DNA of 64,000 nucleotides from the NCBI GenBank assembly GCA_019359395.1, contig JAHHHK010000004.1, positions 248,001 through 312,000 on the forward strand, written 5' to 3'. The notes under the pieces are model-generated. The model saw only the letters and a list, made by a program, of their open reading frames with translations. It ran no database searches and was not told the DNA's origin. Origin of the DNA: Komarekiella atlantica HA4396-MV6. GTDB taxonomy: Bacteria > Cyanobacteriota > Cyanobacteriia > Cyanobacteriales > Nostocaceae. A program made the position numbers and the translations under genes. This document shows positions 7,023-46,478 of the stretch, one piece after another (positions within the stretch are counted from its first letter, which is position 1; each line of letters begins with the position of its first letter).

Positions 7023-7760
7023 CTAATGACTCTTAACTCTTAAGGCTTGTAGTTGTTGTTCAAGTTGCTCAATGCGCGAGAGCAACGAGCTAATCACAGT
7101 TGCTTCTAAGTCGGGTAGCTTTCCGTGTTCTAGGGGACTGAGACTGGTGTCATTGCGGGAAATAATCCGACCGGGAACCCCGACAACAGTGCAATCGCTA
7201 GGAACTTCGCGCAAAACAATTGAGCCAGCACCAATACGGACGCGATCGCCAATTTGGATATTTCCTAAAACCTTTGCACCAGCGCCCACCACAACGTTTT
7301 TACCTACCGTAGGATGTCGCTTACCGCTTTCTTTCCCAGTCCCGCCAAGGGTGACGCCTTGATAAATCAGTGTATAGTCTCCCACGATCGCAGTTTCGCC
7401 AATCACAACACCCATCCCGTGGTCGATAAACACACCCTGACCAATCTCTGCACCTGGGTGAATTTCAATTCCCGTCAAAAACCGCCCGATATGAGAAATT
7501 AAGCGAGGGATGAAACCCACTCCTCGATGGTGTAACCAGTGAGCGAGACGATGCAAACATAATGCGTGCAGTCCAGGGTAGCAGAATACTACTTCTAGCC
7601 AATTACGTGCTGCGGGATCGCGCTCAAAGATAATGCGAAAATCACTCAATAATGGCTCAAAAAAAACGCCAGAGAGTAGATTTTTTACCAGGGATGTATT
7701 TGAAGAATCCTGCGCTTTGATAGTCTGGGAATTGCTGATACTGTCAAAGGACTGTTGCAT
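7023..7760 (-). CDS. nifP: Serine O-acetyltransferase (nif-associated)
   Basis: A 245-residue CysE-type serine acetyltransferase, which makes O-acetylserine for cysteine synthesis and so supports the high sulfur demand of Fe-S cluster assembly. The left-handed beta-helix is visible as hexapeptide repeats from about residue 90 to 180, with the catalytic histidine in [13 protein letters not shown] and the [13 protein letters not shown] loop. The C-terminal coiled coil ([18 protein letters not shown]) is typical of NifP. It is the first gene of the minus-strand nif group. A 22-bp-spaced repeated motif lies about 170 bp upstream (see 7930-7966), shared with nifB. Confidence 0.93.
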
Positions 7761-7929
7761 CGGTAATGTCTATCTGGTTGAAAGAGCCATGTGCTATTTT
7801 TATGCTTATATCAGGCGACTTCCAACTAGATAGGAAACCCAATGTTGATTGGATTTATTGAATTGATTAAGGTTGTACTCAAGCGTCCAAACCCTGACTT
7901 AAGGGAAATTTAAAATTTCTCTTGGGGTA

Positions 7930-7966
7930 GGGGTGCTAGTATTTAACTATGGGGGTGCTAGTATTT
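7930..7966 (-). promoter_or_regulatory. Tandem candidate activator motif upstream of nifP
   Basis: Read toward nifP, the 15-mer AAATACTAGCACCCC occurs twice (7966-7952 and 7944-7930) with a 22-bp repeat distance, about two helical turns. Near-identical copies with the same 22-bp spacing and same orientation relative to the gene lie upstream of nifB (14728-14785). A binding site for a nif-specific activator such as CnfR is the natural inference; it has not been shown here. Confidence 0.55.
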
Positions 7967-8411
7967 TTGGGACAGGGTTTAAGAATTTCTGTTCTCGCTA
8001 CAAGAAACTTTACCTGTAAGACTTTGAAAACATTTCAGCAAGATATTTTGCAATATATTAAGCTGTACTCAGATGCACTCAAATATGAGGTAGATGAAGC
8101 GGAAAATCAATATTCTGTATATCGTATTACTATTAGTATCTTATTATTAGGTTAGACAAAAGACAGGTTTCTTTATTTTCTTTTAGGATTTACTGTCTGT
8201 ATGTATATATACGTTTCTAAATATAGTTATAGCTCATAGTAAATGTTTTATTCTATTGATGTGTTGAAGTTGCGATCGCAAAATCCTCCAGAAATCTCGT
8301 TTCCAGATTCTACCTGGAAATGCACTTCATTGCGGCTCTACCGCCAATAGGGTAGGCGGAGCCTCTCAATACGCGTTCCCAGCCAGAGACTAGGAACAAG
8401 GCATCTGAAGA
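7967..8411. other. Intergenic region upstream of the nifP motif
   Basis: No gene is supported. A 68-codon open frame at 7949-8155 begins inside the repeated motif, has no ribosome-binding site and no family features, and is not called. The rest is AT-rich, with one HIP1 octamer near 8273. Confidence 0.4.
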
Positions 8412-8642
8412 CTCATTAATGGAGTTCAAAGGCTCATTAATGAGTATCAAAGGTTCATTAATGGAGTTCAAAGGTTCATTAATGGAGTTCAAAGGTTCAT
8501 TAATGGAGTTCAAAGACTCATTAATGGAGTTCAAAGACTCATTAATGGAGTTCAAAGGCTCATTAATGGAGTTCAAAGGTTCATTAATGAAGTTCAAGGA
8601 CTCATTAATGGAGTTCAAGGACTCATTAATGAGTATCAATTT
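8412..8642. repeat. 21-bp minisatellite, 11 copies
   Basis: Eleven head-to-tail copies of a 21-bp unit (ctcattaatggagttcaaagg and close variants). Because 21 is a multiple of three, both strands stay open and would encode heptapeptide repeats (SLMEFKG on plus, NESLNSI on minus). Copies differ by one to four bases. The array abuts the stop codon of the neighbouring minus-strand gene. There is no independent evidence that either frame is translated. Confidence 0.9.
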
Positions 8643-8643
8643 A

Positions 8644-9120
8644 TCAAGAACCAGACGCAGCTTTAGTTGGTCTACCTCTAATAGCTTTAAAGCGTTCGCC
8701 CAACTGTTCAGCGATAGTTTTTAAGCCTGGAGTCTTTTTAGATGCAGTCTTCACGTAATCATAAACAGTCAAACTGCTGGTCATAGCTTCACTACCGACT
8801 GCCATTAGGGTATCATCTACCTGTTCGGTGAGTTGCTGCATTGAGATTAAAAGTTCCGTAAGCGCACTGGCTAATTGATAATCCCGAACAAGTTCCTCAA
8901 CGTTAAAAGTGGATGGAAGGATTTCGCGGTTAGACTGAGCAGCAGTAACGCTATTATTCACAAACGCTAGGCTTTTATCGCCCATTTTCACCAACTTACG
9001 CCGTTCTTCAGTGCTGAGAGTAATCAAAAAGGGCATCTTTTGTTGGACTGTCTGTAGCGCGGCTTTAATTTCTTGGATATCTTGTGGCGAAAGGGAAGCT
9101 GCAATATTTTGATAAGCCAT
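8644..9120 (-). CDS. Hypothetical protein, helical, 158 aa
   Basis: I do not recognise the family. The protein is predicted mostly helical, without signal peptide or membrane segment. It has an N-terminal region with SLSPQDIQEIKAALQTVQQK, a conserved-looking LSTEERRKLVKMGDKSLAFV segment, and a basic C terminus (ERFKAIRGRPTKAASGS) that could bind nucleic acid. The start ATG at 9120 is reasonable. It is followed directly by a 21-bp tandem repeat. Nothing links it to the nif genes. Confidence 0.6.
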   Translation of the reverse strand: MAYQNIAASLSPQDIQEIKAALQTVQQKMPFLITLSTEERRKLVKMGDKSLAFVNNSVTAAQSNREILPSTFNVEELVRDYQLASALTELLISMQQLTEQVDDTLMAVGSEAMTSSLTVYDYVKTASKKTPGLKTIAEQLGERFKAIRGRPTKAASGS

Positions 9121-9181
9121 TGTATATTTACCTTGGTAGTTCTAATGGTGAAGTAGCAATATTTGCTAAATCTAGAATTCC

Positions 9182-9376
9182 CATAGGTGAATGCGATGTC
9201 TACGACGGGCTACGCCAACGCACATTTTCTTATAATTTTTAGTTTAGTAGGGTGTGTTAGCGCAGCCTAAAGCATCGCAATACAACTAGCTAATTAATAA
9301 TCCCAACAAGTTCTTCATGCGATGTCTACGACGGTCACTGAGCCAAGTCGAAGTGCGGGCTACGCCTACGCACATC
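9182..9376. repeat. Dispersed repeat 'gcgatgtctacgacgg...gggctacgcc' (two copies)
   Basis: Two copies of a GC-rich repeat starting gcgatgtctacgacgg lie at about 9192-9224 and 9319-9373; a third lies at about 13152-13204. The longer copies share the insert tcactgagccaagtcgaagt before gcgggctacgcct. They occur only between genes and look like small palindrome-derived repeats spread through the genome. Confidence 0.6.
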
Positions 9377-9381
9377 ATCAC

Positions 9382-9825
9382 CTATTTATTTATCTGTTTT
9401 AGCGCCGATGCTGAGGGATACTGACCAGATGCAATCAAAGCTTGTCGCTCTACAAGCCTTTCATCGCTGTTAAAATCTAGGATACGTGCGGTGACTTCTC
9501 CAATCTCTGTTTGATGTTGAATGACAGCCTCATCTAGCCGAAAATGTTCACCCCAAAAGTCTCTGCGTGGGTTAAAAAACCGCACAAGTTCGCCAGTTTG
9601 CCAATTAATTGACCCTAAATCCGTGCCTTTTTGCAGGTTACAGAAGATACAGGCATAGCAGAGATTATCTGCTGTTGTAGCCCCACCGTGTTTCACGCTG
9701 ATGATATGGTCAACTTGACAACCCGATGATCTATCTACTTCAGAGACGAGACAGTATTCACAAATATGATCAGCGCGAGATGCAACTAAACGCCGCAGTT
9801 CTAAACTAATGTATGAACGAGACAC
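9382..9825 (-). CDS. HNH endonuclease
   Basis: A 147-residue HNH-type nuclease. The zinc/HNH core is visible as CEYCLVS, then CQVDHIISVKHGGATTADNLCYACIFCNLQKGTD in two parts: the HNH catalytic DH pair and a second CxxC. The C-terminal FFNPRRDFWGEHFRLDEA segment is common in cyanobacterial members. It lies 9 bp after a small acidic helical protein (9835-10089) on the same strand. The same pair, with the HNH part truncated, recurs at 43101-43553, suggesting a functional two-gene unit of toxin-antitoxin or restriction type (inference). Confidence 0.8.
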   Translation of the reverse strand: MSRSYISLELRRLVASRADHICEYCLVSEVDRSSGCQVDHIISVKHGGATTADNLCYACIFCNLQKGTDLGSINWQTGELVRFFNPRRDFWGEHFRLDEAVIQHQTEIGEVTARILDFNSDERLVERQALIASGQYPSASALKQINK

Positions 9826-9834
9826 TTTGGATAC

Positions 9835-10089
9835 TTATTTAGGGTTAATGTAGTTACGAGCTTTTGCTTTTGCTAATGTCATAATATGCTCTAGTGTGAG
9901 GAAATGATCTAACTCTCGCTGGTCACTTCCTGTAAGACCTTCAGTTTTTGCCCGGTAAACGAGATCCTCTAAGCGCTCTTTTGCAGCATCCGAAAGTTTA
10001 AAATCGATAACACCTTGGGGAGTGGTTCCAGCAGCAATAAACTCTATAATTTCATCGTAGACTTTGGTGGTATTTACAGATGTAGTCAT
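9835..10089 (-). CDS. Small helical partner protein of the HNH endonuclease
   Basis: An 84-residue helical protein with the pattern FKLSDAAKERLEDLVYRAKTEG followed by LTGSDQRELDHFLTLEHIM. It resembles the 68-residue protein at 43347-43553 (FQLPEAVQERLQFLLDRQ, then LAERREAEGLVELVEFLSLL) in layout and position, each directly 5' of an HNH gene. The likely role is a regulator or antitoxin of the nuclease; this is inference from pairing. No characterised family name is certain. Confidence 0.6.
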   Translation of the reverse strand: MTTSVNTTKVYDEIIEFIAAGTTPQGVIDFKLSDAAKERLEDLVYRAKTEGLTGSDQRELDHFLTLEHIMTLAKAKARNYINPK

Positions 10090-10121
10090 GAGATTGCCTG
10101 TTTTTATTTAATTTTACTGAT

Positions 10122-10349
10122 TTACAACGCCACTTTTAATGACTTTCCTAGTGTCTTAGGCTCTGGTAGAGTTTCACCGTCAGCCAAAGATGATTCAATC
10201 AGCATTTCTAAAACTTCCTGAGCATTTTTCAGAGCTTCTTCATAAGTTTTTCCGTGAGTGCAAGGCTGCATTATATGCGTAAACTCAGGTAGCAAAACCA
10301 CATAACATTTGTCTTCTTCTGACCATTGAATCACGGTTGTATATTTCAT
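10122..10349 (-). CDS. HicB-family antitoxin, without HicA
   Basis: A 75-residue protein with the HicB fold: YTTVIQWSEEDKCYVVLLPEF, then THGKTYEEALKNAQEVLEMLIES. HicB normally neutralises the mRNA interferase HicA encoded beside it. No HicA is found on either side; instead a short stub ending IFAIAHRREAYG, resembling the end of a RelE/ParE toxin, precedes it. It may be a solitary antitoxin or regulator left after loss of its toxin. Confidence 0.8.
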   Translation of the reverse strand: MKYTTVIQWSEEDKCYVVLLPEFTHIMQPCTHGKTYEEALKNAQEVLEMLIESSLADGETLPEPKTLGKSLKVAL

Positions 10350-10351
10350 AT

Positions 10352-10396
10352 TTATCCATAAGCTTCTCGTCGATGAGCAATAGCAAATATACCTGG
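10352..10396 (-). pseudogene. Possible RelE/ParE toxin C-terminal stub
   Basis: Fifteen codons ending in TAA read PGIFAIAHRREAYG, similar to the end of RelE/ParE toxins (…FAIAH.RR…Y). The reading frame is cut at 10396 by a MITE-like element. The match is short, so the call is tentative. Confidence 0.3.
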
Positions 10397-10496
10397 CGAT
10401 TAGAAATCGCGGTTACACAAACCAAGTCCGCCTGCACGGACTCAAAGAATTTGAAACCCACCTCCGTGGGTTTTGTCTGTGTAGAATTCTATTCGC
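10396..10496. mobile_element. MITE-like inverted-repeat element (~101 bp)
   Basis: The ends form an imperfect inverted repeat: cgattagaaatcgcggttac at the left pairs with the complement of gtagaattctattcgc at the right, joined by acacaaac/gttttgtctgtgt. Two smaller hairpins (agtccgcctgcacggact and acccacctccgtgggt) lie inside. There is no coding capacity. It separates a toxin-like stub from the DUF6887-type gene and supplies the last codons and stop of the latter. Confidence 0.6.
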
Positions 10497-10728
10497 TAGG
10501 GCTTCTTTTATTTGCTTGCTCAATACGCTGCCTAATCGCTTCTTCCGCTATGCGAATATTTTCTTCAATTGGTGTACCGTCTGCTGTCACCATTGGCCCG
10601 TACCAAGTTGCTTCCGAATCGGGAGTGCGGCGGCTATACAATACACGCAAAGGCTCTACATCTTCCCGGTGTGCAAGTGCGTAAGCTATCAGTTCCTTAT
10701 TAGTCATTGCCTCAAAGTTCGGTCGCAT
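10489..10728 (-). CDS. DUF6887-like small protein
   Basis: A 79-residue protein starting MRPNFEAMTNKELIAYALAHRED, the N-terminal pattern of the cyanobacterial DUF6887 family, and containing SEATWYGPMVTADG. The function is unknown. Its start overlaps the end of a DUF6888-like frame by 17 bp, matching the usual DUF6888-DUF6887 gene pair. The last codons (SE-stop) fall in the MITE-like element at 10396-10496, so the original C terminus was probably altered. A broken relative lies at 42825-43034. Confidence 0.65.
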   Translation of the reverse strand: MRPNFEAMTNKELIAYALAHREDVEPLRVLYSRRTPDSEATWYGPMVTADGTPIEENIRIAEEAIRQRIEQANKRSPSE

Positions 10729-10903
10729 CTAAAAACCTCCAATCTCCATTAGGGGGTACGATGATTTGAAGTTCCTCGTTTGCAAAAATAAACACAACTC
10801 CGGTTTGGTCGTCATAACGGAATAATTCGACATTTCGGCAGCTATTCGATAACATTTGACAGACACGCACACAGGCTTGTGCTTGTTCATTGGTTGGATT
10901 TAT
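10712..10903 (-). pseudogene. DUF6888-like gene lacking a standard start codon
   Basis: On the minus strand an open frame reads NPTNEQAQACVRVCQMLSNS, then VELFRYDDQTGVVFIFANEE and PPNGDWRFLDATEL-stop, a clear DUF6888-type protein of about 63 residues. Where relatives start with ATG, this frame has ATA (10901-10903), and no ATG, GTG or TTG lies nearby in frame. It therefore appears to have lost its start, unless a rare ATA/ATT start is used. It overlaps the DUF6887-like gene by 17 bp. Confidence 0.6.
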
Positions 10904-11011
10904 CGTCTGTTCCTCAATTGTGACATAGATAATAGTAAGCCTTTCTTTTGCGGTTTCAAATGTGAATCCTAAATCTAAGAGTAGGGGAGCCAGAATGAGT
11001 TCTCCAGTTTT

Positions 11012-11209
11012 TTACCCGACTTCAGCAATATCTTTTTTACCACTTTCAAAGGATTCAATAAATCCAGGAATATCAAGCAACTCTTGGGTAGCATCTTCAC
11101 TTTATTTATCTGCGAGATACGCTAAAAAGTCAGCAATAAGTTGTAGATGTTCCGAAGATAATCCATCTAAATATTGGTTAATTTGCTGACAAACTTCTGT
11201 ATTGTTCAT
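11012..11209 (-). pseudogene. Antitoxin-like small gene with in-frame stop
   Basis: From the ATG at 11209 the frame reads MNNTEVCQQINQYLDGLSSE, LQLIADFLAYLADK, then a TAA at 11102-11104, and continues in the same frame as SEDATQELLDIPGFIESFES to a second TAA at 11012. The joined sequence matches the layout of cyanobacterial small antitoxin-like proteins (ADFLAYLA.R.SE.ATQELL.IPGF). The part before the stop, extended to an ATG at 11311, could still be made as 69 residues. A single substitution explains the break. Confidence 0.6.
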
Positions 11210-11423
11210 GTTTTCACCACTCTTTTCCTTCTCTAATTCTGCCAACTTCTTGTGTGCAAATCCAAACTGAGTGAAAGCTTGCCGAATAAGCTTTTCATTT
11301 TCAGTATACATACTGAGTAAGACTCAAGTTGGATTTGTATATTATAGTGATAACTTTGATTGATTAATGCAAAATAATCAACATTTTATAATCTGCAATT
11401 GTGGTTACGTAGAGGAAATAATT

Positions 11424-12002
11424 ATGTCAAACATAGGCTTATGGGAATCTGCTAAACAGGGAAATATAAATGCTATATCTGATTTAGTCCAGAAGGCTTT
11501 TGATGATGACAACGTAACTGTAGAACCGCATATGGACTTATTGGGTATAACACTAACGTTAAAATTAAGCTCTCAAAAAGTTTTGGAGCCGCAAGTTTGT
11601 ATTAAAAAAGTTATAGAAACCCTAAACGAGATTCAGCCGACAGGAATCAAATTAGTAAGGGTATCTTCAATCGCTTCAATTTGCCAAATTAAATATAGGT
11701 GGAATAGATGGATTGATAGAAAACAGGGTGAGTTTGTAGACGATACCAAGAATGCAAATCTTCTTAATTATATTACTATAGCTTTCCTGGTTTCTTGGAT
11801 AGGCTGCACCACTTTTACAAACAAGCCTTCTTCACCTCCCCCAAATACTTCCAGTCAAACGTCAACACAAATCACAAATCCAGACTGTCTGTACGTTCCA
11901 GAAAGTGCAATTGCTGGCAAGAATTGGCAGGAAATATCCCAATTCAAAGATGAATTAAAGCGTCAAAGCGGGAAAAAGTGTGTTCTTTTTACTGGTGGTT
12001 AG
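11424..12002 (+). CDS. Hypothetical protein with one membrane segment
   Basis: A 192-residue protein starting MSNIGLWESAKQGNINAISD. The N-terminal ~90 residues (through LNEIQPTGIKLVRV) resemble a small alpha/beta domain found at the N termini of many multidomain cyanobacterial proteins. A hydrophobic segment (YITIAFLVSWIGC, about 119-132) is followed by a Pro/Ser/Thr-rich linker and a C-terminal part with two cysteines (CLYVPE, KKCVLF). A longer start at 11367 is possible but less fitting. The cysteine after the hydrophobic stretch hints at membrane anchoring; function is unknown. Confidence 0.65.
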   Translation: MSNIGLWESAKQGNINAISDLVQKAFDDDNVTVEPHMDLLGITLTLKLSSQKVLEPQVCIKKVIETLNEIQPTGIKLVRVSSIASICQIKYRWNRWIDRKQGEFVDDTKNANLLNYITIAFLVSWIGCTTFTNKPSSPPPNTSSQTSTQITNPDCLYVPESAIAGKNWQEISQFKDELKRQSGKKCVLFTGG

Positions 12003-12092
12003 TTTTCAAAGTTGCAACGTAGGTTGGGTTAACCGAAGCACAACCCAACCAAACAACGTCAATGTTGGATTTATCTCAAATTCGCGGTGTCC

Positions 12093-12125
12093 AGATCCCC
12101 GACTTTTCAAAAAAGTCGGGGATCT
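12093..12125. terminator. Bidirectional terminator hairpin
   Basis: Two perfect 15-bp arms (agatccccgactttt at 12093-12107 and its complement at 12111-12125) with a 3-base loop lie between convergent genes ending at 12002 and 12136. The arms end in A/T runs, so it can terminate in both directions. Confidence 0.75.
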
Positions 12126-12135
12126 AACAAACCTA

Positions 12136-13080
12136 TTAACTGTAAATTGCGATCGCAATTTTCCCCACAGCACGCTCGGTTTCGCTATAAGTATGAGCCG
12201 CTGCTAATTCTTGTAAAGGATATGTGCGATCAATCACTACACGAATTTTGCCCGCTTCAATCAAATCTTTGAGATAAACCAAGTCTTGAGTGTTGGGCCG
12301 CTCAATGATAAATTTAGCTTTTTGACCAGGAAGAAACGCTGTTAAGATACCTTGCACAAAGATTTCGGGCGTCGGTAGCGTTGTGATATAAATTCCATTA
12401 GGTTTGAGGACTCGTTTGCTAGTAGAGAGCGATCGCTTGCCAACTACATCAAAAACAATATCGTACTGCGCTGCACCCTCAGTGAAATCTTGTTGCGTAT
12501 AGTCAATGAGATGATCTGCTCCCAGAGATTTTACAAAGTCCAAATTTTTAGTACTGCAAACTCCCGTTACCTGTGTCCCCAAAGCTTTGGCAATTTGCAC
12601 CGCAAAAATCCCCACCCCACCCGCAGCACCATTTATCAAAACATTTTGTCCAAATTGAATATTACCCTGATCTCGCAGTGCTTGCAGAGCCGTGAGCGCC
12701 GCTAAGGGGACAACAGCCGCTTCCTCATAAGTCAGGTTTGTTGGTTTGGGTGCAACCAAATTTTCTGAAACAGCTGCAAATTCAGCATAAGCTCCTCCAG
12801 GGAAGCTAGTGCTCCCATATATAGAATCTCCTGGCTGAAAACGTGTGACTTGACTACCAACCGCTACGACTTCTCCAGCCAAATCAAACCCCAGGATCAT
12901 CGGGAATTTGTTTCCTGTAAGCAAGCTCAACATTCCCTTGCGGATTTTCCAATCAATGGGATTAACGCTACTAGCACGAACTTTTACAAGTAACTGCATT
13001 GGCTCAATTTTCGGCTGCTCCACGTCTTCATAGCGCAACACTTCAACCGAGCCATATCGCCGGATAACGACTGCTTTCAT
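12136..13080 (-). CDS. NAD(P)-dependent quinone oxidoreductase-like MDR enzyme
   Basis: A 314-residue zinc-free medium-chain dehydrogenase/reductase of the quinone oxidoreductase type. The N-terminal GroES-like domain includes VKVRASSVNPIDWKIRKG and GFDLAGEVVAVG; the Rossmann fold has the nucleotide-binding GAAGGVGIFAVQIAK block at about residue 149-163. Such enzymes reduce quinones or alpha,beta-unsaturated carbonyls with NADPH. It stands alone, convergent with the hypothetical gene at 11424, with a shared terminator between them. Substrate cannot be predicted. Confidence 0.85.
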   Translation of the reverse strand: MKAVVIRRYGSVEVLRYEDVEQPKIEPMQLLVKVRASSVNPIDWKIRKGMLSLLTGNKFPMILGFDLAGEVVAVGSQVTRFQPGDSIYGSTSFPGGAYAEFAAVSENLVAPKPTNLTYEEAAVVPLAALTALQALRDQGNIQFGQNVLINGAAGGVGIFAVQIAKALGTQVTGVCSTKNLDFVKSLGADHLIDYTQQDFTEGAAQYDIVFDVVGKRSLSTSKRVLKPNGIYITTLPTPEIFVQGILTAFLPGQKAKFIIERPNTQDLVYLKDLIEAGKIRVVIDRTYPLQELAAAHTYSETERAVGKIAIAIYS

Positions 13081-13151
13081 AGCATTCCTCCTGCTACCCT
13101 GTTTTGCTGAATGAATTCAGACAGTCTGTTTTTCATTATGAATCCAGTTTA

Positions 13152-13206
13152 GCGATGTCTACGACGGTCACTGAGCCAAGTCGAAGTGCGGGCTACGCCT
13201 AAGCAT
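13152..13206. repeat. Dispersed repeat, third copy
   Basis: The segment gcgatgtctacgacggtcac...gcgggctacgcct repeats the copy at about 9319-9373 almost exactly, here upstream of the MDR gene. Confidence 0.6.
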
Positions 13207-13310
13207 TGGATTTAGCAGTCTAGTTATAGTTAACTGACAAAATTTCTGAAACCTTTGAAAGTATGTAGAGACTTCCTAAAATGGGGGTATGAATTTAAAA
13301 CTGCACCTGT

Positions 13311-13481
13311 ATGCCAGCTAGAGACATTTATCACAACAATGTCAAAAATGCTTTGATTAAAGACAAATGGCTAATTACTCATGACCCCCTGACTCTTAAG
13401 TTTGGTAAAAAAGACATGTACGTCTATCTAGGTGCTAAGCAGTTGTTAGCGGCACAAAAAGTAGAATGTAAAATTGCAAGC
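13311..13481 (+). pseudogene. xisH: xisH N-terminal remnant
   Basis: The frame starts MPARDIYHNNVKNALIKDKW, continues THDPLTLKFGKKDMYVYLGA and QLLAAQKVECKIA, which is the N-terminal third of XisH, a protein named from the fdxN excision element of Anabaena. Resemblance stops after KIA, where XisH proteins continue VEVKSF; here the sequence runs into a GCGATCGC octamer at 13480 and then the 3' end of a Uma2 gene. The frame stays open to 13592 but the tail is unrelated. No xisI follows. xisH-like genes are widespread accessory genes, so this need not imply a former fdxN element. Confidence 0.8.
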
Positions 13482-13495
13482 GATCGCTTCGCTGT

Positions 13496-14074
13496 TTATT
13501 CTTCAGTGCTAAATACAACATCTTCATACAGCAGTTCAATCGGACACTCAAATTCAATGCTTGATAAAGTGACGATATCTCCGACCGTGTAGGGATAATA
13601 AAGCCACATCCTCCCCTCTCCCCGACAGTAACGCTCAACAGAGATTTTTTCCGAGTCAATCAAGATATACTCTTGCAAACTGGGGATTGTTAGATAATAA
13701 GTAAATTTTTCATCCCGATCTTTAGCGCTTGTCCCTGGCGAAAGAACTTCAGCAATCAGTTTGGGATGTTGAATAAATTTGCGGGCATTGAGGTCTTGAG
13801 GGTCGCAACTGACAATAACATCAGGATAATAGTAGCGGCTCTGGGGAGTGAGTTGCACTTTCACGTCTGACACATTCACTCGACAACCTCTAGAACGCAA
13901 ATGAGGGTACAAAGCTCTATAGAGATTTAGTGCAATGTCGTTGTGGGGAATTGTACCGCCTGTCATGGCAAATACTTCACCATTAGCATATTCATAGCGA
14001 ACGTCTTGCTGAGGTTCCCATTCGAGATATTCCTCAACGGTCATTTTTGGTAGTTGTTGGGGGATAGCTATCAT
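13496..14074 (-). CDS. Uma2-family (DUF820) endonuclease-like protein
   Basis: A 192-residue Uma2 protein starting MIAIPQQLPKMTVEEYLEWE. Family features are YEYANGEVFAMTGGT, YYYPDVIVSCDP with the PD pair, and the PKLIAEVLSPGTSAKDRDEKF block holding an E and a K of the PD-(D/E)XK-like core. The family is strongly expanded in cyanobacteria; its role is unsettled. A start at 14092 is possible but the internal ATG is more typical. Its 3' end meets the truncated xisH. Confidence 0.85.
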   Translation of the reverse strand: MIAIPQQLPKMTVEEYLEWEPQQDVRYEYANGEVFAMTGGTIPHNDIALNLYRALYPHLRSRGCRVNVSDVKVQLTPQSRYYYPDVIVSCDPQDLNARKFIQHPKLIAEVLSPGTSAKDRDEKFTYYLTIPSLQEYILIDSEKISVERYCRGEGRMWLYYPYTVGDIVTLSSIEFECPIELLYEDVVFSTEE

Positions 14075-14092
14075 AACTAAGATTTTTATCAC

Positions 14093-15229
14093 GCTTGGTT
14101 TGATTGTAGCTAAATAGTATACGTAACAAAGTCATTTAAACCTTTCTCCTTTTATAAGCAAGATTTAGAATTTTCCTCCTTCTGGCGTCGTAAGGGGGTT
14201 AGAGGGTTAGGTTTTTTGCCAAGGTTTGTAGTGAGCAATTTAGAAAAATCATTGCGTAGTTTACCGCCGTAGGCATCGCTCAATCATGTTAGATTGTAGT
14301 TTGTTGTCTCAAACACAAAATCCGAAACTTTCCTACCTATCTCCTCATTGTGGGAATGAAAAAAAGCAACTTAAAAGTTAAATTTTTTGAAAAATATGTG
14401 CAGCAATACATCTATTTTCACAAGCCTGCATGGCTTGCCAAATAAGACTTAGAACTATAATTGAATATCATTGTCAAAGCAAAAGTTAAAAAAATATGAA
14501 TTGCATTTTTACCCTAAAAAAAATGATATGTTAGATACAGAATTGAATTTCGCACGTTTCTGGAGTAGAACGATATAAACTACTCCAGATTTTTCACCCT
14601 CAAACCCTTGCCATTTATTGGTTTTGAAAAAATTTGGGGTCAATCTGAGTACACATTGAAATAACCCAAACCCAGTTTCAAGTTAGTTAAAATCCTTGCT
14701 GGAATGGGATTATGGCTGAGTACAGATAAATCCTGAACCCCTATCCATAAACACTAGAACCCCAACCAAAAAATACTAGAACCCCCACCCAAAAAATAAA
14801 TTTTTAATTCTTGTAATACTTGAAGAATTAGGATTTTTATTGCTTGAGTACAAGCGTAATAAATCCAATAAATTCTATCCTAGATAGACGCACCGTCTGA
14901 CTAGGAAGTGGCTGCTATAAATCTTATATCGCCAATCACTTAATGCTCCAACACGAAACGAAGCAAAGAGTGAGTGGAGGGATGACATAGCACCATGCCA
15001 GAAGTGAATAGAAGTCGCGGCTGTAAGCACAAATTCTACCCAAGAACCGAACGTTGACACACACCAGCCGAACATCAAATATCTATCGCCTGCCCTACTT
15101 GACAACAAGTCGCCCGAACCCAAGCGTTTGCAGGCAGTGTGGAAGACGCGACTTCAATTCCTGGGCATAGAGAGTAGCAACAGCATCTCCCACAGTGGCA
15201 GCCAGTCCACCGACCTTTTGCGAAATTCA
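14093..15229 (+). promoter_or_regulatory. nifB upstream region (1.1 kb, no gene)
   Basis: No coding sequence is supported in this long spacer; an antisense open frame at 14875-15123 has no family features. Notable contents are A/T-rich tracts at 14370-14540 and the 22-bp-phased motif array at 14728-14785. The length is consistent with a long nifB leader and a complex heterocyst promoter (inference). Confidence 0.5.
14728..14785 (+). promoter_or_regulatory. Phased candidate activator motif upstream of nifB
   Basis: Three copies on a 22-bp repeat: AAATCCTGAACCCC (14728-14741, degenerate), AAACACTAGAACCCC (14749-14763) and AAATACTAGAACCCC (14771-14785). The last two differ at one or two positions from the two copies upstream of nifP (7930-7966), with identical spacing and orientation relative to the gene. 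I know of CnfR-recognised elements in nifB and nifP promoters of Leptolyngbya; equivalence is an inference. Confidence 0.55.
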
Positions 15230-16684
15230 ATGACATCACCGTCTACACGACTCCTCAACTCTCCTGCTACGGAATCGACGACAACCCCAGCAAAATCAGG
15301 TGGTTGCGGCTGCGACAGCAATAGCAGCGCCACCGTGGAAAGGGATGAAAAGCTCCAAGAACGTATTGCTAAACATCCCTGCTACAGCGAAGACGCTCAT
15401 CACCATTACGCCAGGATGCACGTTGCAGTTGCTCCAGCCTGTAACATTCAATGCAACTATTGCAATCGTAAATATGACTGCGCTAACGAAAGTCGCCCTG
15501 GAGTGGTTAGCGAGTTATTAACACCAGAAGAAGCAGCACACAAAGCTTTGGTCATTGGTGGCAAGATTCCTCAAATGACAGTTGTAGGAATTGCCGGCCC
15601 TGGCGACCCATTGGCAAACCCAGACAAGACATTCCGCACATTTGAGTTGATTGCAGACAAAGCACCGGATATCAAGCTTTGTTTATCAACCAATGGTTTA
15701 ATGCTGACCGAACACATCGATCGCATTAAACAATTAAATATAGATCACGTTACGATTACCCTAAACACCATCGACCCAGAAATCGGCGCACAGATTTATT
15801 CTTGGGTTCACTACAAACGCAAGCGTTATAGAGGCGTAGAAGGAGCCAAGATTCTGCTCGAAAAGCAGATGGAAGGATTGCAAGCCCTCAAAGAAGCAGA
15901 CATCTTGTGCAAGGTTAACTCAGTGATGATTCCCGGAATTAACGACCAGCACTTGGTGGAAGTGAATAAATTCATTCGTGAGAATGGGGCATTTTTGCAC
16001 AACATCATGCCGCTGATTTCTGCACCAGAACATGGCACACATTTCGGCTTAAACGGTCAGCGCGGCCCTTCAACCAAGGAGCTCAAAGAAGTTCAAGACA
16101 ATTGCTCCGGCAACATGAAAATGATGCGCCATTGCCGTCAGTGTCGAGCCGATGCAGTCGGATTATTGGGAGAAGACCGCAGCCAGGAATTTAGCAAAGA
16201 TAAATTCTTGGAAATGGATTCAGAATATGACCTCGAAAAGCGCGCCAGTGTACACGAAGGTATTGAGAAGTTTAAAGAAGAACTTAAAGTAGCCAAACAG
16301 AAGGCGCAAACCGGCAAGAAATTTGCCAACAATCCTAAAGTGCTAGTTGCAGTAGCAACCAAAGGCGGCGGATTGGTTAACCAGCACTTCGGTCATGCCA
16401 AGGAATTCCAAATTTACGAAGTAGAGGGCAACGAAGTTCGCTTTGTCAGTCACCGCAAGATTGACCAGTATTGTCAAGGTGGATACGGTGAAGAAGCCAC
16501 TTTTGAGCATATTATGAAAGCGATCGCAGATTGCAAAGCAGTTTTAGTTTCCAAGATTGGTAACTGTCCCCAAGAAAAATTGCAAGAAGCTGGCATACAG
16601 ACTATTGAAGCTTACGACGTAATTGAAAAGGTTGCTTTGGAGTTTTACGAGCAATACGTGAAGGAACTAGGGACTAGGGACTAG
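15230..16684 (+). CDS. nifB: FeMo-cofactor biosynthesis radical SAM protein NifB
   Basis: A 484-residue NifB, which builds the [8Fe-9S-C] NifB-co precursor of FeMo-co. The radical SAM motif CNIQCNYC (CX3CX2C) lies about 30 residues after the conserved [22 protein letters not shown] entry. A C-terminal NifX-like domain ([20 protein letters not shown]) is present, as in most NifB. The frame extends to 15128, but the ATG at 15230 gives the typical length and start. It heads the plus-strand nif cluster; a heptamer repeat array follows its stop. Confidence 0.96.
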
Positions 16685-21672: not shown

Positions 21673-23175
21673 ATGACACCTCCAGAAAACCAAAACATCA
21701 TCGAAGAAAGAAAAGAACTAATTAAAGAAGTTCTAGACGCTTATCCTGATAAAGCTAAGAAAAAACGGGAAAAGCACTTAAGTGTATACGAAGAAGGTAA
21801 GTCCGATTGCGGCGTTAAGTCTAACATCAAATCCCTTCCTGGTGTAATGACCGCTCGTGGTTGTGCTTATGCCGGTTCAAAAGGTGTGGTTTGGGGCCCT
21901 ATCAAGGACATGATCCACATCAGCCACGGGCCTGTTGGTTGCGGTTACTGGTCTTGGTCTGGTCGTCGTAACTACTACATTGGTACTACAGGTGTTGATA
22001 CCTTTGGTACTATGCACTTCACCTCTGACTTCCAAGAACGAGATATCGTTTTCGGTGGTGACAAAAAACTCGTCAAGTTAATCCAAGAACTTGATGTACT
22101 CTTCCCTCTCAACCGTGGTGTTTCCATTCAATCTGAATGTCCCATCGGTCTAATTGGGGATGACATCGAAGCTGTTGCTCGCAAGACATCGAAAGAAATT
22201 GGCAAGCCAGTTGTTCCCGTTCGTTGCGAAGGCTTCCGCGGTGTTTCTCAGTCTTTGGGACACCACATCGCTAACGACATGGTTCGTGACTGGGTATTCA
22301 CCAGAGCAGACCAAGCTAAGAAAGACGGCACACTACAGTTTGAAGGCACTCCTTATGACGTAGCCATCATTGGTGACTACAACATTGGTGGAGATGCTTG
22401 GGCTAGCCGCATCCTCCTAGAAGAAATCGGCTTGCGCGTAGTCGCTCAGTGGTCAGGTGATGGCACCATCAACGAAATGTTGATGACCCCCAATGTGAAG
22501 ATGAACCTCATCCACTGTTACCGGTCGATGAACTACATCAGCCGTCACATGGAAGAAGCTTACGGTATACCCTGGTTGGAATACAACTTCTTCGGCCCCA
22601 CTAAGATTGCTGAATCTTTACGGGAAATTGCTTCTAAATTTGACGAGACAATCCAAGCAAACGCTGAGAAAGTCATCGCCAAGTATCAGCCAACAATGGA
22701 TGCGGTAGTTGCTAAGTACCGCCCCCGCTTGGAAGGTAAGACTGTAGCCATCATGGTTGGTGGTCTGCGTCCTCGCCACGTTGTCCCAGCCTTCCAAGAC
22801 TTGGGCATGAAGATGATTGGTACAGGTTATGAGTTCGCTCATAACGACGACTACAAACGTACCACTCACTACATCGAAAACGGCACCATCGTTTATGACG
22901 ACGTTACCGCTTACGAATTCGAGGAGTTTATCAAAGCCCTGAAGCCTGACCTCGTAGCCTCTGGTGTGAAAGAGAAGTACGTCTTCCAAAAGATGGGTCT
23001 TCCTTTCCGTCAAATGCACTCTTGGGATTACTCCGGCCCTTATCACGGTTATGACGGCTTTGCCATCTTCGCTCGTGACATGGATTTGGCACTCAACAGC
23101 CCAACCTGGGGATTAATCGGCGCTCCTTGGAATGAAAAGGCTAAGGCTGAAGCTAAAGCTAAGGCTGCCGTTTAG
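21673..23175 (+). CDS. nifD: Nitrogenase MoFe protein alpha chain
   Basis: A 500-residue NifD. P-cluster ligands are C64 (RGCAYAG), C90 (PVGCGYW) and C156 (SECPIG). FeMo-co is held by C282 (LIHCYRS) and H449 ([13 protein letters not shown]). The gene is continuous. Codons for WDYSG contain the 11-mer GGATTACTCCG at 23025-23035, the core that flanks the nifD excision element in Anabaena PCC 7120, present once here as an intact site. The C terminus is Lys/Ala-rich ([13 protein letters not shown]). Confidence 0.98.
23025..23035 (+). other. Single-copy nifD-element attachment core (empty site)
   Basis: GGATTACTCCG matches the 11-bp direct repeat that I recall bordering the nifD element. One copy inside an uninterrupted nifD indicates an unoccupied or already excised site. 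xisA is not in this window. Confidence 0.55.
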
Positions 23176-34383: not shown

Positions 34384-34758
34384 ATGACTAGAAAGATGTA
34401 TTACTTTAATAGTGATGATTCACATCCTATACAACCGACATCTGCGGATATTATACTGCGGCAGCAACTAGAGTATTCTATTAGCAAATACTTTTATGAA
34501 GCTTGCGATCGCACCATTCAAAATCTCTTATCTAGTTGTCGGTGGTATGTCACAACCCATGCTAATGCTTTGACATTAGTAATTGAATGTCCCGATCAAG
34601 TTACAAATTGGCGAGTTTTACAAAAAATTGTGCCAATGGGGACATTACTGTACGGCATTATTAGTAGTGCTAAAATCCGTGTTTGTCCACCAGAAAGCCA
34701 AGGCGTACCTTTTGAAATGAGGGTAGATGAACTCTCTGTTTATCGGGATTGGGCCTGA
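34384..34758 (+). CDS. Uncharacterised protein, partner of flavoenzyme (paralogue of 63068-63439)
   Basis: A 124-residue protein of a family I cannot name. Its C-terminal ~88 residues closely match the protein at 63068-63439: CFYxACDRxxQxLLSSCxWY, then TTxAxxLTLxIxC and a KIRVxPP ... PFEMxVxExSxYRDW ending. The N-terminal ~35 residues differ. It looks like a soluble alpha/beta domain with two conserved cysteines (ACDR, LSSC). It is co-directional with and 18 bp after the SagB-like gene, and convergent with hupW. An accessory or substrate-carrier role for the flavoenzyme is inferred from the repeated pairing. Confidence 0.75.
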   Translation: MTRKMYYFNSDDSHPIQPTSADIILRQQLEYSISKYFYEACDRTIQNLLSSCRWYVTTHANALTLVIECPDQVTNWRVLQKIVPMGTLLYGIISSAKIRVCPPESQGVPFEMRVDELSVYRDWA

Positions 34759-44844: not shown

Positions 44845-46440
44845 TTAAGCAGTACGAAAACGCGCTAATTCTTCACCAGTCTTCGCATCATGGGCGTGGA
44901 CTGTACACACCAAACAAGAATCAAACGATCGCGCGACGTGACCAACTTCCACAGGGTCGGTAGAATCGTAAATGGGTGTGCCTACTAAAGCTTCTTCAAT
45001 GGGGCCGCGTTTACCTTCACTATCACGAGGGCCGATATTCCAAGTACCGGGGGCAATTACCTGGTAATTCTTAATTTTACCGCCCTCGACTTCTACCCAG
45101 TGACACAGAGAACCTCGCGCTGCTTCAGTTGCACCCCAACCCTTGCCGTCTTTTTCTGTGGGTTTGATGTACCAGGCGTCATTTAATTTGAACTCACGCA
45201 AACAGTGTTCAGCTTGGCGATATAATTTCACAAGTTCGTGAACTCGCGCTAATTGACGTACATGGATGCTAGCGCCACGCATCCGCTTGAAGACATCCAA
45301 GATAAACCCGTCGTAGTGTTGCCAAGATTCTCCATGTTTGCCACCTGCGACTAATTGACGCGCTAAGGGGCCGGCTTCTAAGCGTCCAAAGTCTTGGTGC
45401 AATACTGCACTTGCCCAAGAATAGGCATTATCGAAGTCTTTTGTATTATTTGCAGTGGGTTTAGTGGTGCGATCGCTGGGGTGAATGTCTGCTGTGCCTT
45501 CATCGTACCAGGAATGAGTTGTATTCTCACGGGTAAAAGACGGATCCATTAAGGTGTGAGTGTCAGCGAAACTATCGTACACTCCACTTTTCATAATCAA
45601 AGCAGCATTTCGTCCTTCAATGGTGGGCTTTTGGTATTTGTCCTCGTGGGCTAAATATCCCCAAGTGACGTATTTACCAACACCAGCCCCATACCTATCT
45701 AAACCGATATCTAAACCCATGCGCCAATAAAAACCCAAGTCGGAATCTCGATGATTTCGGTCTTCATCTAGCCAATCCATGAAGTCATCATAAGTTTGGA
45801 TTTCTTCGTAACGTTCTAAAGAACAACCCAACCACACTGGTTCTAACCAATTGGTGCGGAAATATTCCAGAATTGCCCAGGCGCGGGTAATGTCTGTTAG
45901 GGTGGGGGCGCACATCACACCACCAGGAACCATGTAGCTAGAATGGGGCCATTGACCACCTAACAGTGCATATATCTCTACAGGTTTAGCTGAAATTGTA
46001 ATACCGATTTCATAAGACTTGCCAGTGTAGGCGGCAAAGCGTCTGCAAGCTTCGTCATAATAGCGACTATTGCGGTATTTTTTATTGGTCAAGTCGATAG
46101 CAAACAAACCATAAAAATACCGGGGTATGCTTTGGATTGTTTCGACAATTTGACCCAGATTTCTAGCTAAAATTGCATTGCGTGGAACTTCTGTACCCCA
46201 GGCTGTATCTAAGGCCCAGGATGCACAAGTTAGGTGAGAACCGCCGCAAATACCGCAAATGCGAGGCGTGACAATTAATCCGGCTTGGGGGTCTTTACCG
46301 CGTAGGATAACTTCAAATCCTCGGAAGAGTTCGGCATGTGTCCAAGCGTTGACTACCCGCCCATGTTCGATATCAACTCGGACATCTAAATCGCCTTCAA
46401 CTCTGCCAACTGGTGAGATGTCTAATGATTGAATTGTCAT
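44845..46440 (-). CDS. hupL: Uptake [NiFe] hydrogenase large subunit
   Basis: A 531-residue HupL starting MTIQSLDISPVGRVEGDLDV. The active-site cysteine motifs are RICGICGGSH (N-terminal) and DSCLVCTVHAH (C-terminal), followed by a short tail removed by HupW. The enzyme oxidises H2 made by nitrogenase in heterocysts. The gene is continuous, without the hupL excision element of Anabaena PCC 7120. The ATG at 46440 is preferred to a TTG nine codons upstream. Confidence 0.97.
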   Translation of the reverse strand: MTIQSLDISPVGRVEGDLDVRVDIEHGRVVNAWTHAELFRGFEVILRGKDPQAGLIVTPRICGICGGSHLTCASWALDTAWGTEVPRNAILARNLGQIVETIQSIPRYFYGLFAIDLTNKKYRNSRYYDEACRRFAAYTGKSYEIGITISAKPVEIYALLGGQWPHSSYMVPGGVMCAPTLTDITRAWAILEYFRTNWLEPVWLGCSLERYEEIQTYDDFMDWLDEDRNHRDSDLGFYWRMGLDIGLDRYGAGVGKYVTWGYLAHEDKYQKPTIEGRNAALIMKSGVYDSFADTHTLMDPSFTRENTTHSWYDEGTADIHPSDRTTKPTANNTKDFDNAYSWASAVLHQDFGRLEAGPLARQLVAGGKHGESWQHYDGFILDVFKRMRGASIHVRQLARVHELVKLYRQAEHCLREFKLNDAWYIKPTEKDGKGWGATEAARGSLCHWVEVEGGKIKNYQVIAPGTWNIGPRDSEGKRGPIEEALVGTPIYDSTDPVEVGHVARSFDSCLVCTVHAHDAKTGEELARFRTA

Positions 46441-46460
46441 TTCTTCTATCCTGATTTTTA

Positions 46461-46478
46461 TAAGCACTGAAGTGCTTA
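46461..46478 (-). promoter_or_regulatory. hupS-hupL intergenic hairpin
   Basis: TAAGCACT and AGTGCTTA form an 8-bp stem in the 45-bp gap between hupS and hupL. A hairpin in this position is known from Nostoc punctiforme, where it is thought to affect transcript stability or subunit ratio. Confidence 0.65.

Follow-up and report, generated by a model that had tools for sequence, protein, structure and literature searches.

A 22-bp-phased promoter module upstream of nifP and nifB in Komarekiella atlantica, probably CnfR-dependent, also present at a third operon and with look-alikes on plasmids

In the 64,000-nucleotide stretch of the Komarekiella atlantica HA4396-MV6 genome analyzed here (contig JAHHHK010000004.1, positions 248,001 to 312,000; hereafter the window), nifP and nifB are each preceded by a 15-bp motif repeated at 22-bp steps, and these repeats form the middle of a ~275-bp module at both promoters. 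The module runs, in order, through a box termed A0 (TGAGTACA), a second box A1, three repeats (R0, R1 and R2), a third box A2, an A/T-rich stretch and an extended -10. The element is real and highly conserved, and it is quite likely that it serves CnfR-dependent activation. The nifB region and CnfR as its activator are already known, as described in the accessible parts of PMC8510180, PMC4284476 and PMC5943405. The whole is a detailed, extended form of this promoter class, to which we add the spacing grammar, a third operon and a plasmid cousin.

Repeats, boxes and spacing

On the minus strand before nifP, a scan of the window places exact copies of the 15-mer (AAATACTAGCACCCC) at 7930-7944 (R2) and 7952-7966 (R1). 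On the plus strand before nifB lie an exact copy at 14771-14785 (R2, AAATACTAGAACCCC), a one-mismatch copy at 14749-14763 (R1, AAACACTAGAACCCC) and a degenerate copy, read directly from the sequence, at 14727-14741 (R0). An initial annotation of the window had described these five copies, their exact 22-bp spacing and their orientation toward the gene, and each of these points held in both arrays. Absent from its list was a degenerate R0 at nifP (7974-7988, minus strand; sequence read), which also appeared as a 3-mismatch pair in an order-wide search.

As single words, the repeats carry little weight: the 15-mer with up to three mismatches occurs nine times in the window (3.0 expected), and with up to two mismatches 43 times genome-wide (26 for the pattern read backward). 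The strength of the evidence lies instead in the pairing at 22 bp. Four places in the window match with at most one mismatch, two at nifP and two at nifB, and the complete 7.78-Mb genome holds six such matches, forming three pairs of exactly 22 bp: nifP, nifB and a third operon, whose pair (contig C62:314528-314564) is 2.5 kb beyond the window end. Across the order, the spaced pair pattern was found in 16 of 148 genomes and its backward-read counterpart in 0 of 148. Chance origin of the arrays was rejected on these grounds.

The order-wide pair search returned 32 places, from which 30 loci were examined (left out were the own nifP R0–R1 pair and G035:C55:94967). With the proteins of the window and the third operon as references, the downstream genes at these loci are nifB, nifP, nifV or the third operon, barring two places. 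In G139 (L092/L107), the pair precedes a small ferredoxin, which we take to be FdxB, and a cytochrome oxidase (cox) subunit II gene. In G067 (L108), at a locus divergent from cnfR, it precedes a small membrane protein 37% identical to the first protein of the third operon, followed by an apparent cox subunit II gene (judged by translation).

With respect to the surrounding DNA, the initial annotation regarded the nifP and nifB regions as otherwise unrelated. This proved wrong: both carry TGAGTACA boxes, a similar A/T-rich stretch past the last box, and an extended -10 whose distance is equal in the two. Its account of the repeats was sound and incomplete, since a second box type exists besides the R boxes. 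At nifB (plus strand), exact TGAGTACA boxes were read at 14646..14653 (A0), 14717..14724 (A1) and 14845..14852 (A2, +73 from R2, the long form of the two described below), with a predicted extended -10, TGCTATAAA, at 14913..14921, 68 bp past the A2 start. The gene itself spans 15128..16684 (TIGR01290, 669.8 bits; start codon provisional). At nifP (minus strand), exact TGAGTACA boxes were read at 8064..8071 (A0) and 7874..7881 (A2, +62 from R2, the short form), a degenerate A1, CGAGAACA, at 7990..7997, and a predicted extended -10, TGATATAAG, at 7805..7813, again 68 bp past the A2 start. The gene (7023..7760) encodes a serine O-acetyltransferase (TIGR01172, 251 bits), the name nifP being taken from its position and the earlier annotation.

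The module was derived from an alignment of 37 promoters with anchoring on the last repeat, and its spacing was measured in 48 sites: 45 of 55 named nifB loci together with our own nifB, nifP and third site. Left out were five near copies of L012 (L013, L014, L016, L019 and L065) and five loci with weak, distant or cut upstream DNA (L041, L052, L056, L057 and L064); L063 and L067 have just 8 and 1 bases of upstream DNA. R, A1 and A2 were scored in the choice of sites, so that their peaks are partly built in, and A0 and the -10 serve as independent checks. The three top mean R-like scores fell at 0, -22 and -44, with R0 (-44) ranking third, and R1 at -22 scored at least 8/10 in 43 of the 48 sites. 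With up to one mismatch, TGAGTACA was found at -54/-55 from R2 in 40 sites (A1) and at -124 to -129 in 42 (A0), an offset unused in site choice. The word TGnTATAA was the best -10-like word 64-69 bp past A2 in all 48 promoters, including our own nifB and nifP. A role at the transcript level was set aside, because all 48 sites have the array ahead of the predicted -10.

The distance from R2 to A2 takes two forms that differ by one helical turn: A2 (up to one mismatch) stands at +61 to +63 in 13 of the 48 sites and at +70 to +74 in 33, and never in between. A protein complex seated on one side of the helix would tolerate such a shift of ~10 bp without intermediates. The long form is commoner at nifB and the short form on the nifP/nifV side, while the third operon has the short form in 19 of 19 cases; the window holds both (73 at nifB, 62 at nifP). 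A larger set of 296 phased pairs was picked by R letters alone, with R0–R1 and R1–R2 counted apart and the loci partly fetched by the profile described below. Here 269 of the 296 had an A2, lying at 60-64 or 70-75 bp, or at these distances plus 22 bp, apart from a single one at 89, and the -10 lay 66-70 bp past A2 in 262 of 265. The R pair scored at least 21/26 (4 of the 26 being free letters) in 49 of the 55 named nifB loci, and the best place on the opposite strand of the same stretches mostly reached 13-19/26 where there is no divergent array. The loci under 21/26 are L041, L052, L055, L056, L064 and L066, with the array of L041 ~2.6 kb farther upstream. Grammar this fixed makes for a searchable promoter class, so that sequence searches could list candidate members of a CnfR regulon, and the natural one-turn alternative amounts to a ready-made spacing experiment.

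Distribution, further targets and CnfR

A sequence-only profile of the module (profile R1; 172 positions, ending before the -10) was searched at a cut-off of E <=0.001 with strict filters. It matches the window at nifB (14715..14882, plus strand, 112.8 bits) and nifP (7845..7997, minus strand, 96.3 bits), both sites being within the training alignment. In the order, 185 of 388 genomes are matched, and all 71 sampled members of the window's family are matched, with 3-5 matches each. For comparison, a NifB model matches 173 of the 388 genomes and a CnfR query 175. A cnfR match is present in 168 of the 185 module-bearing genomes, and 196 genomes have neither module nor cnfR. Of 23 proteobacterial nifB loci, 0 match. 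The nifB module also occurs in loci titled Oscillatoriales, Pleurocapsales, Trichodesmium, Prochloron, Cyanothece and Pseudanabaena, groups that are not known to form heterocysts. An element confined to heterocyst formers was rejected for this reason, and the label "heterocyst-type" of the initial annotation is not supported; given the co-distribution with cnfR and the absence from proteobacterial nifB loci, the module is a trait of CnfR-type cyanobacteria, whether or not they form heterocysts.

Twelve genomes have a module match and neither nifB nor cnfR. Among them, the match in G149 is a plasmid-type cassette, and that in G115 is weak and adjoins a plasmid-type regulator; G178, G224 and G248 are only 63-77% complete, and the matches of G189 and G290 are weak. 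In L240 (G161:C17), a strong module stands before genes related to the third operon, in a genome without a nifB or cnfR match at the cut-offs used; this module is perhaps a remnant after nif loss, or perhaps answers to another regulator.

The third site in our genome (C62:314443-314598, minus strand, 89 bits by the profile; within the training alignment) precedes an operon (L009:3069-6043), here divergent from cysK, that encodes proteins of 138, 90, 103 and 121 residues, a luciferase-like monooxygenase and a protein of 123 residues. Neither Pfam nor NCBIfam gave a match for the small proteins at E 0.001. We annotated 74 sites in 25 genomes, picked for many or diverse matches rather than at random, and in all 10 window-family genomes among them (our own included) this operon is preceded by a module match; the grammar already points, in other words, to an uncharacterized operon throughout the part of the family examined. 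A relative of the operon's first protein precedes cox subunit II in L197 (by Pfam) and probably also in L126, a neighborhood that hints at a respiratory role. A separate observation concerns a 124-residue frame in the nif region of the window (34384-34758), which matches a stretch of L208 (47%). The 123-residue protein of the third operon matches the same stretch, and the two proteins are therefore probably paralogues.

A further target in the 25 genomes is nifV; certain families also have sites before genes with alanine dehydrogenase, NifY-like (DIMCO_N) or ArsC domains, and several genomes (e.g. L200, L202, L205) have a module site 0.6-1.3 kb upstream of cnfR. A fourth match in our own genome (G000:C22:2593-2682, L231) is partial and stands before a pyruvate:ferredoxin oxidoreductase gene. 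Such nifJ-side matches cover part of the profile only, from about R2 to A2; the enzyme was confirmed by Pfam for L231 and L215, and L229 and L230 were judged by like size only. Weak matches were also seen before HSDR_N, ParB, integrase and Macro-domain genes, some of which may be chance.

Our own cnfR (G000:C62:324427, 529 residues, read in L124) is ~10 kb from the third site. CnfR consists of a ferredoxin-like Fe-S domain, a conserved central domain and a C-terminal XRE helix-turn-helix; in a structure search with the family profile, all of the matches listed (60 of 90) fell on the helix-turn-helix end. The first ~59 residues share 45-58% identity with the ferredoxin whose gene follows nifB, presumably FdxN, in 13 loci (56% in our genome), a likeness that fits a gene fusion. 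The chromosome also encodes a CnfR paralogue without the ferredoxin domain (G000:C15:16030-16701; L125:3455-4954, minus strand). No 22-bp array was found near it in the stretches checked, and a 21-bp repeat nearby sits in the end of a coding frame.

Published work on these promoters, as far as the accessible portions of the papers go, agrees with the present module in several respects. In Anabaena variabilis, nifB1 and nifB2 are activated by CnfR and have three conserved upstream cis elements (CS1-CS3), regarded as its probable sites; nifB1 transcription fell by ~50% when either of the first two elements was lost and by 75% when both were, and the promoters have an extended -10 and no -35 (PMC8510180). 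For Leptolyngbya boryana nifB and nifP, motifs I-IX have been described for CnfR recognition (PMC5943405), and a figure legend for Anabaena nifB names the motif TGAGTATA in three copies along with a second highlighted motif (PMC4284476). The named motif resembles our A boxes. The upstream position, CnfR as activator, a repeated TGAGTA-type motif with a second motif, and the extended -10 are thus features of these systems that recur here: the modules stand upstream of nifB and nifP in a genome that has cnfR, with three exact TGAGTACA at nifB and two exact and one degenerate at nifP. The 22-bp step, the one-turn R2–A2 alternative, the third operon and the plasmid link are unstated in the accessible text of the three papers, and some of these may be in print. 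Such promoters have also been used in moving nif genes to other hosts (PMC5943405).

Look-alike modules on plasmids

Some weak, long profile matches revealed a second class of loci with a nif-like layout in other letters, comprising three perfect 22-bp repeats and A-like boxes. In three of the first four plasmid-type loci (L216, L222 and L234), a ferredoxin-less CnfR homologue is encoded beside the array; L225 has an array and no CnfR homologue in the fetched stretch. A DUF3854 domain is present in the large downstream protein of L222 and L225. A tblastn search with a 312-residue part of CnfR against 72,556 plasmid records gave 31 records, of which 14 were fetched. One of the 31 (H1, outside the fetched set) covers the whole CnfR query, and hence a ferredoxin-bearing CnfR can also lie on a plasmid. 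Across the 14 loci, the gene after the regulator is annotated as CyRepA1 family in two, as DUF3987 in one and as PriCT-2 in two, and encodes a large hypothetical protein in four and a hypothetical protein of ~540-557 residues in three; the remaining two have no such gene.

Perfect 22-bp tandem repeats are present in 8 of the 14 plasmid spacers, whereas shuffled controls (100 block-shuffles each) reached at most 18/22 letters. Three of the eight arrays have one common repeat sequence and are not independent, and elsewhere the repeat letters differ between plasmids. Among the spacers without a 22-bp array, L257 has repeats at 42 bp and L258 at 39 bp, and no repeat was found in L261 or L262. Offsets were measured in twelve plasmid loci, with A-like words preselected and L264 done by eye. 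In five of these (L216, L260, L268, L269 and L245), A-like boxes stand at -12 and +102/103 from the first R, the others differing; in the nif short form, A1 is 11 bp before R0 and A2 ~106 bp after the R0 start. The boxes of L245, which comes from G149 with no nifB or cnfR match, are exact TGAGTACA. Inverted A-like copies occur at -74/-75 in 7 of the 12 loci, and a direct A0-like copy in L222. Likeness to nif fails at the -10, which is 68 bp after A2 only in L257; in five of the 12 loci the best -10-like word is at 62 bp with 6/8 letters, and in the rest it is elsewhere.

Taken together, several CyRepA1-type cassettes resemble the nif module in their three 22-bp direct repeats, flanking A-like boxes and a CnfR-family protein within the cassette. 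They differ from it in that the regulator lacks the N-terminal ferredoxin domain, the letters are different, a replication gene is downstream, the A0-like box is inverted where found (except in L222) and the -10 spacing is mostly different. The regulator family can be aligned to CnfR along most of the protein, with 22-39% identity. A 31-member tree places the 14 nif CnfRs on one side of a branch (100/100), next to L257, L258, L259 and L222 (91/87), with 12 further plasmid types beyond.

In terms of origin, we offer tentatively, as a serious possibility, that the O2-responsive switch of nif is a domesticated plasmid replication-control switch, in which a plasmid regulator reading a phased 22-bp array before a replication gene would have been captured, its module spread to nif, cox and other operons, and an FdxN-like ferredoxin fused at the front. 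The tree is unrooted with long branches, and the plasmid rows were sampled by likeness to CnfR; the direction from plasmid to nif would accordingly be a reading of these data and not a result. If the link is true, it would explain where the master activator of cyanobacterial nitrogen fixation came from and point to a role for the unstudied regulator that adjoins replication genes on plasmids. A literature search for papers with both CyRepA and CnfR found none, and nothing on the link turned up among the entries listed.

Proposed mechanism and competing explanations

The basis for a mechanism is the order, spacing and conservation of the boxes, the co-distribution with cnfR, the third-operon module and the CnfR homologues beside plasmid arrays. 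Most likely, CnfR would form an oligomer over the R array and the A boxes, aligned on one face of the double helix. Its A2 end, ~78 bp before the predicted start, may help or contact RNA polymerase at the extended -10. CnfR may read the R and A boxes with different domains, and the Fe-S domain of nif CnfR would couple the switch to low oxygen. Support for CnfR comes from the co-occurrence of module and cnfR, the cnfR of our own genome and the CnfR dependence of nifB described in the accessible text of PMC8510180, and the suggestion in the initial annotation of a cooperatively bound activator, with CnfR as the leading candidate, gains accordingly. Direct binding of CnfR to the R boxes, which we infer, is rated somewhat lower than CnfR-dependent activation.

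Several observations weigh against this reading. The module lacks a cnfR match in 17 of the 388 genomes, the reverse holds in seven, and the genomes are related, so that these counts are not independent. Four genomes with no nifB, no cnfR and no reference gene beside the match (G103, L242; G257, L244; G283, L243; G299, L241) have module-like matches at E ~1e-12 to 1e-13. The region upstream of our own cnfR has no match to the module profile, and A1 at nifP is degenerate. The distance between boxes and start differs from that in A. variabilis: the conserved elements are placed 300-600 bp upstream of start sites in the accessible text of PMC8510180, whereas the present boxes are ~80-280 bp before the predicted start, or ~280-480 bp before the nifB frame start used, and the figures can be reconciled only by taking the start codon as the reference point in the paper.

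Turning to alternatives, CnfR might bind the TGAGTACA boxes only, with the R array read by a second protein co-conserved with it. The separately highlighted second motif in the Anabaena legend (PMC4284476) is in keeping with this, as is the independent variation of the box types at nifP, where A1 is degenerate and R1 and R2 are perfect. We nonetheless consider it unlikely, since CnfR homologues are encoded beside plasmid arrays and perfect 22-bp repeats occur in 8 of 14 of those intergenic regions with differing letters. A purely structural role, in which A-tracts every 22 bp and the A/T tract curve the DNA and the other letters are minor, would account for the A run with which many R units begin, for the A/T-rich tract after the array and for the phased A runs in several plasmid arrays; yet letters past the A run are conserved and some plasmid units (L263, L270) have few A's, which makes a bend very improbable as the main function. 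Least credible is binding of the array by NtcA or another general nitrogen regulator. NtcA does have many sites in heterocyst formers, but it is general to cyanobacteria, as far as the accessible text of PMC4284476 goes, whereas module presence tracks cnfR. Moreover, neither module contains a GTAN8TAC, and an NtcA site was rejected for this reason; those closest to nifP start at 8117 and 8199, and the overall count of 14 is near the 10.8 expected.

The plasmid arrays invite a different objection. Iteron arrays of plasmid origins are short direct repeats two helical turns apart, with 22 bp a usual size, and the plasmid arrays could be such iterons bound by the replication protein, the CnfR homologue standing upstream by coincidence and the likeness to nif reflecting convergence on two helical turns. 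The arrays are often found before a replication gene, L225 has an array without a CnfR homologue in the fetched stretch, most plasmid loci lack the nif -10 spacing, and CyRepA1 is a Rep protein according to the accessible text of PMC9978351. Beyond the 22-bp step, convergence does not readily account for the recurrence of A1 at -12 and A2 at +102/103 in five of 12 loci, close to the nif short form, for the exact TGAGTACA boxes of L245, or for the homology of plasmid and nif regulators over most of their length, and we regard coincidence as a doubtful explanation. The window arrays themselves were rejected as plasmid iterons or an origin: unlike iterons, they face nifP and nifB and have no adjoining replication gene, such genes being found only at the plasmid cousins.

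Separate from the module, the window contains 11 copies of a 21-bp tandem repeat (AAGGCTCATTAATGGAGTTCA) at 8408-8639, ~340 bp upstream of the nifP A0 box. Excision elements are known in some relatives. In the window, the nifD frame (500 residues, 21673-23175) is uninterrupted, a 540-residue frame for the hydrogenase large subunit lies at 44845-46467, and no excision element was seen in either frame.

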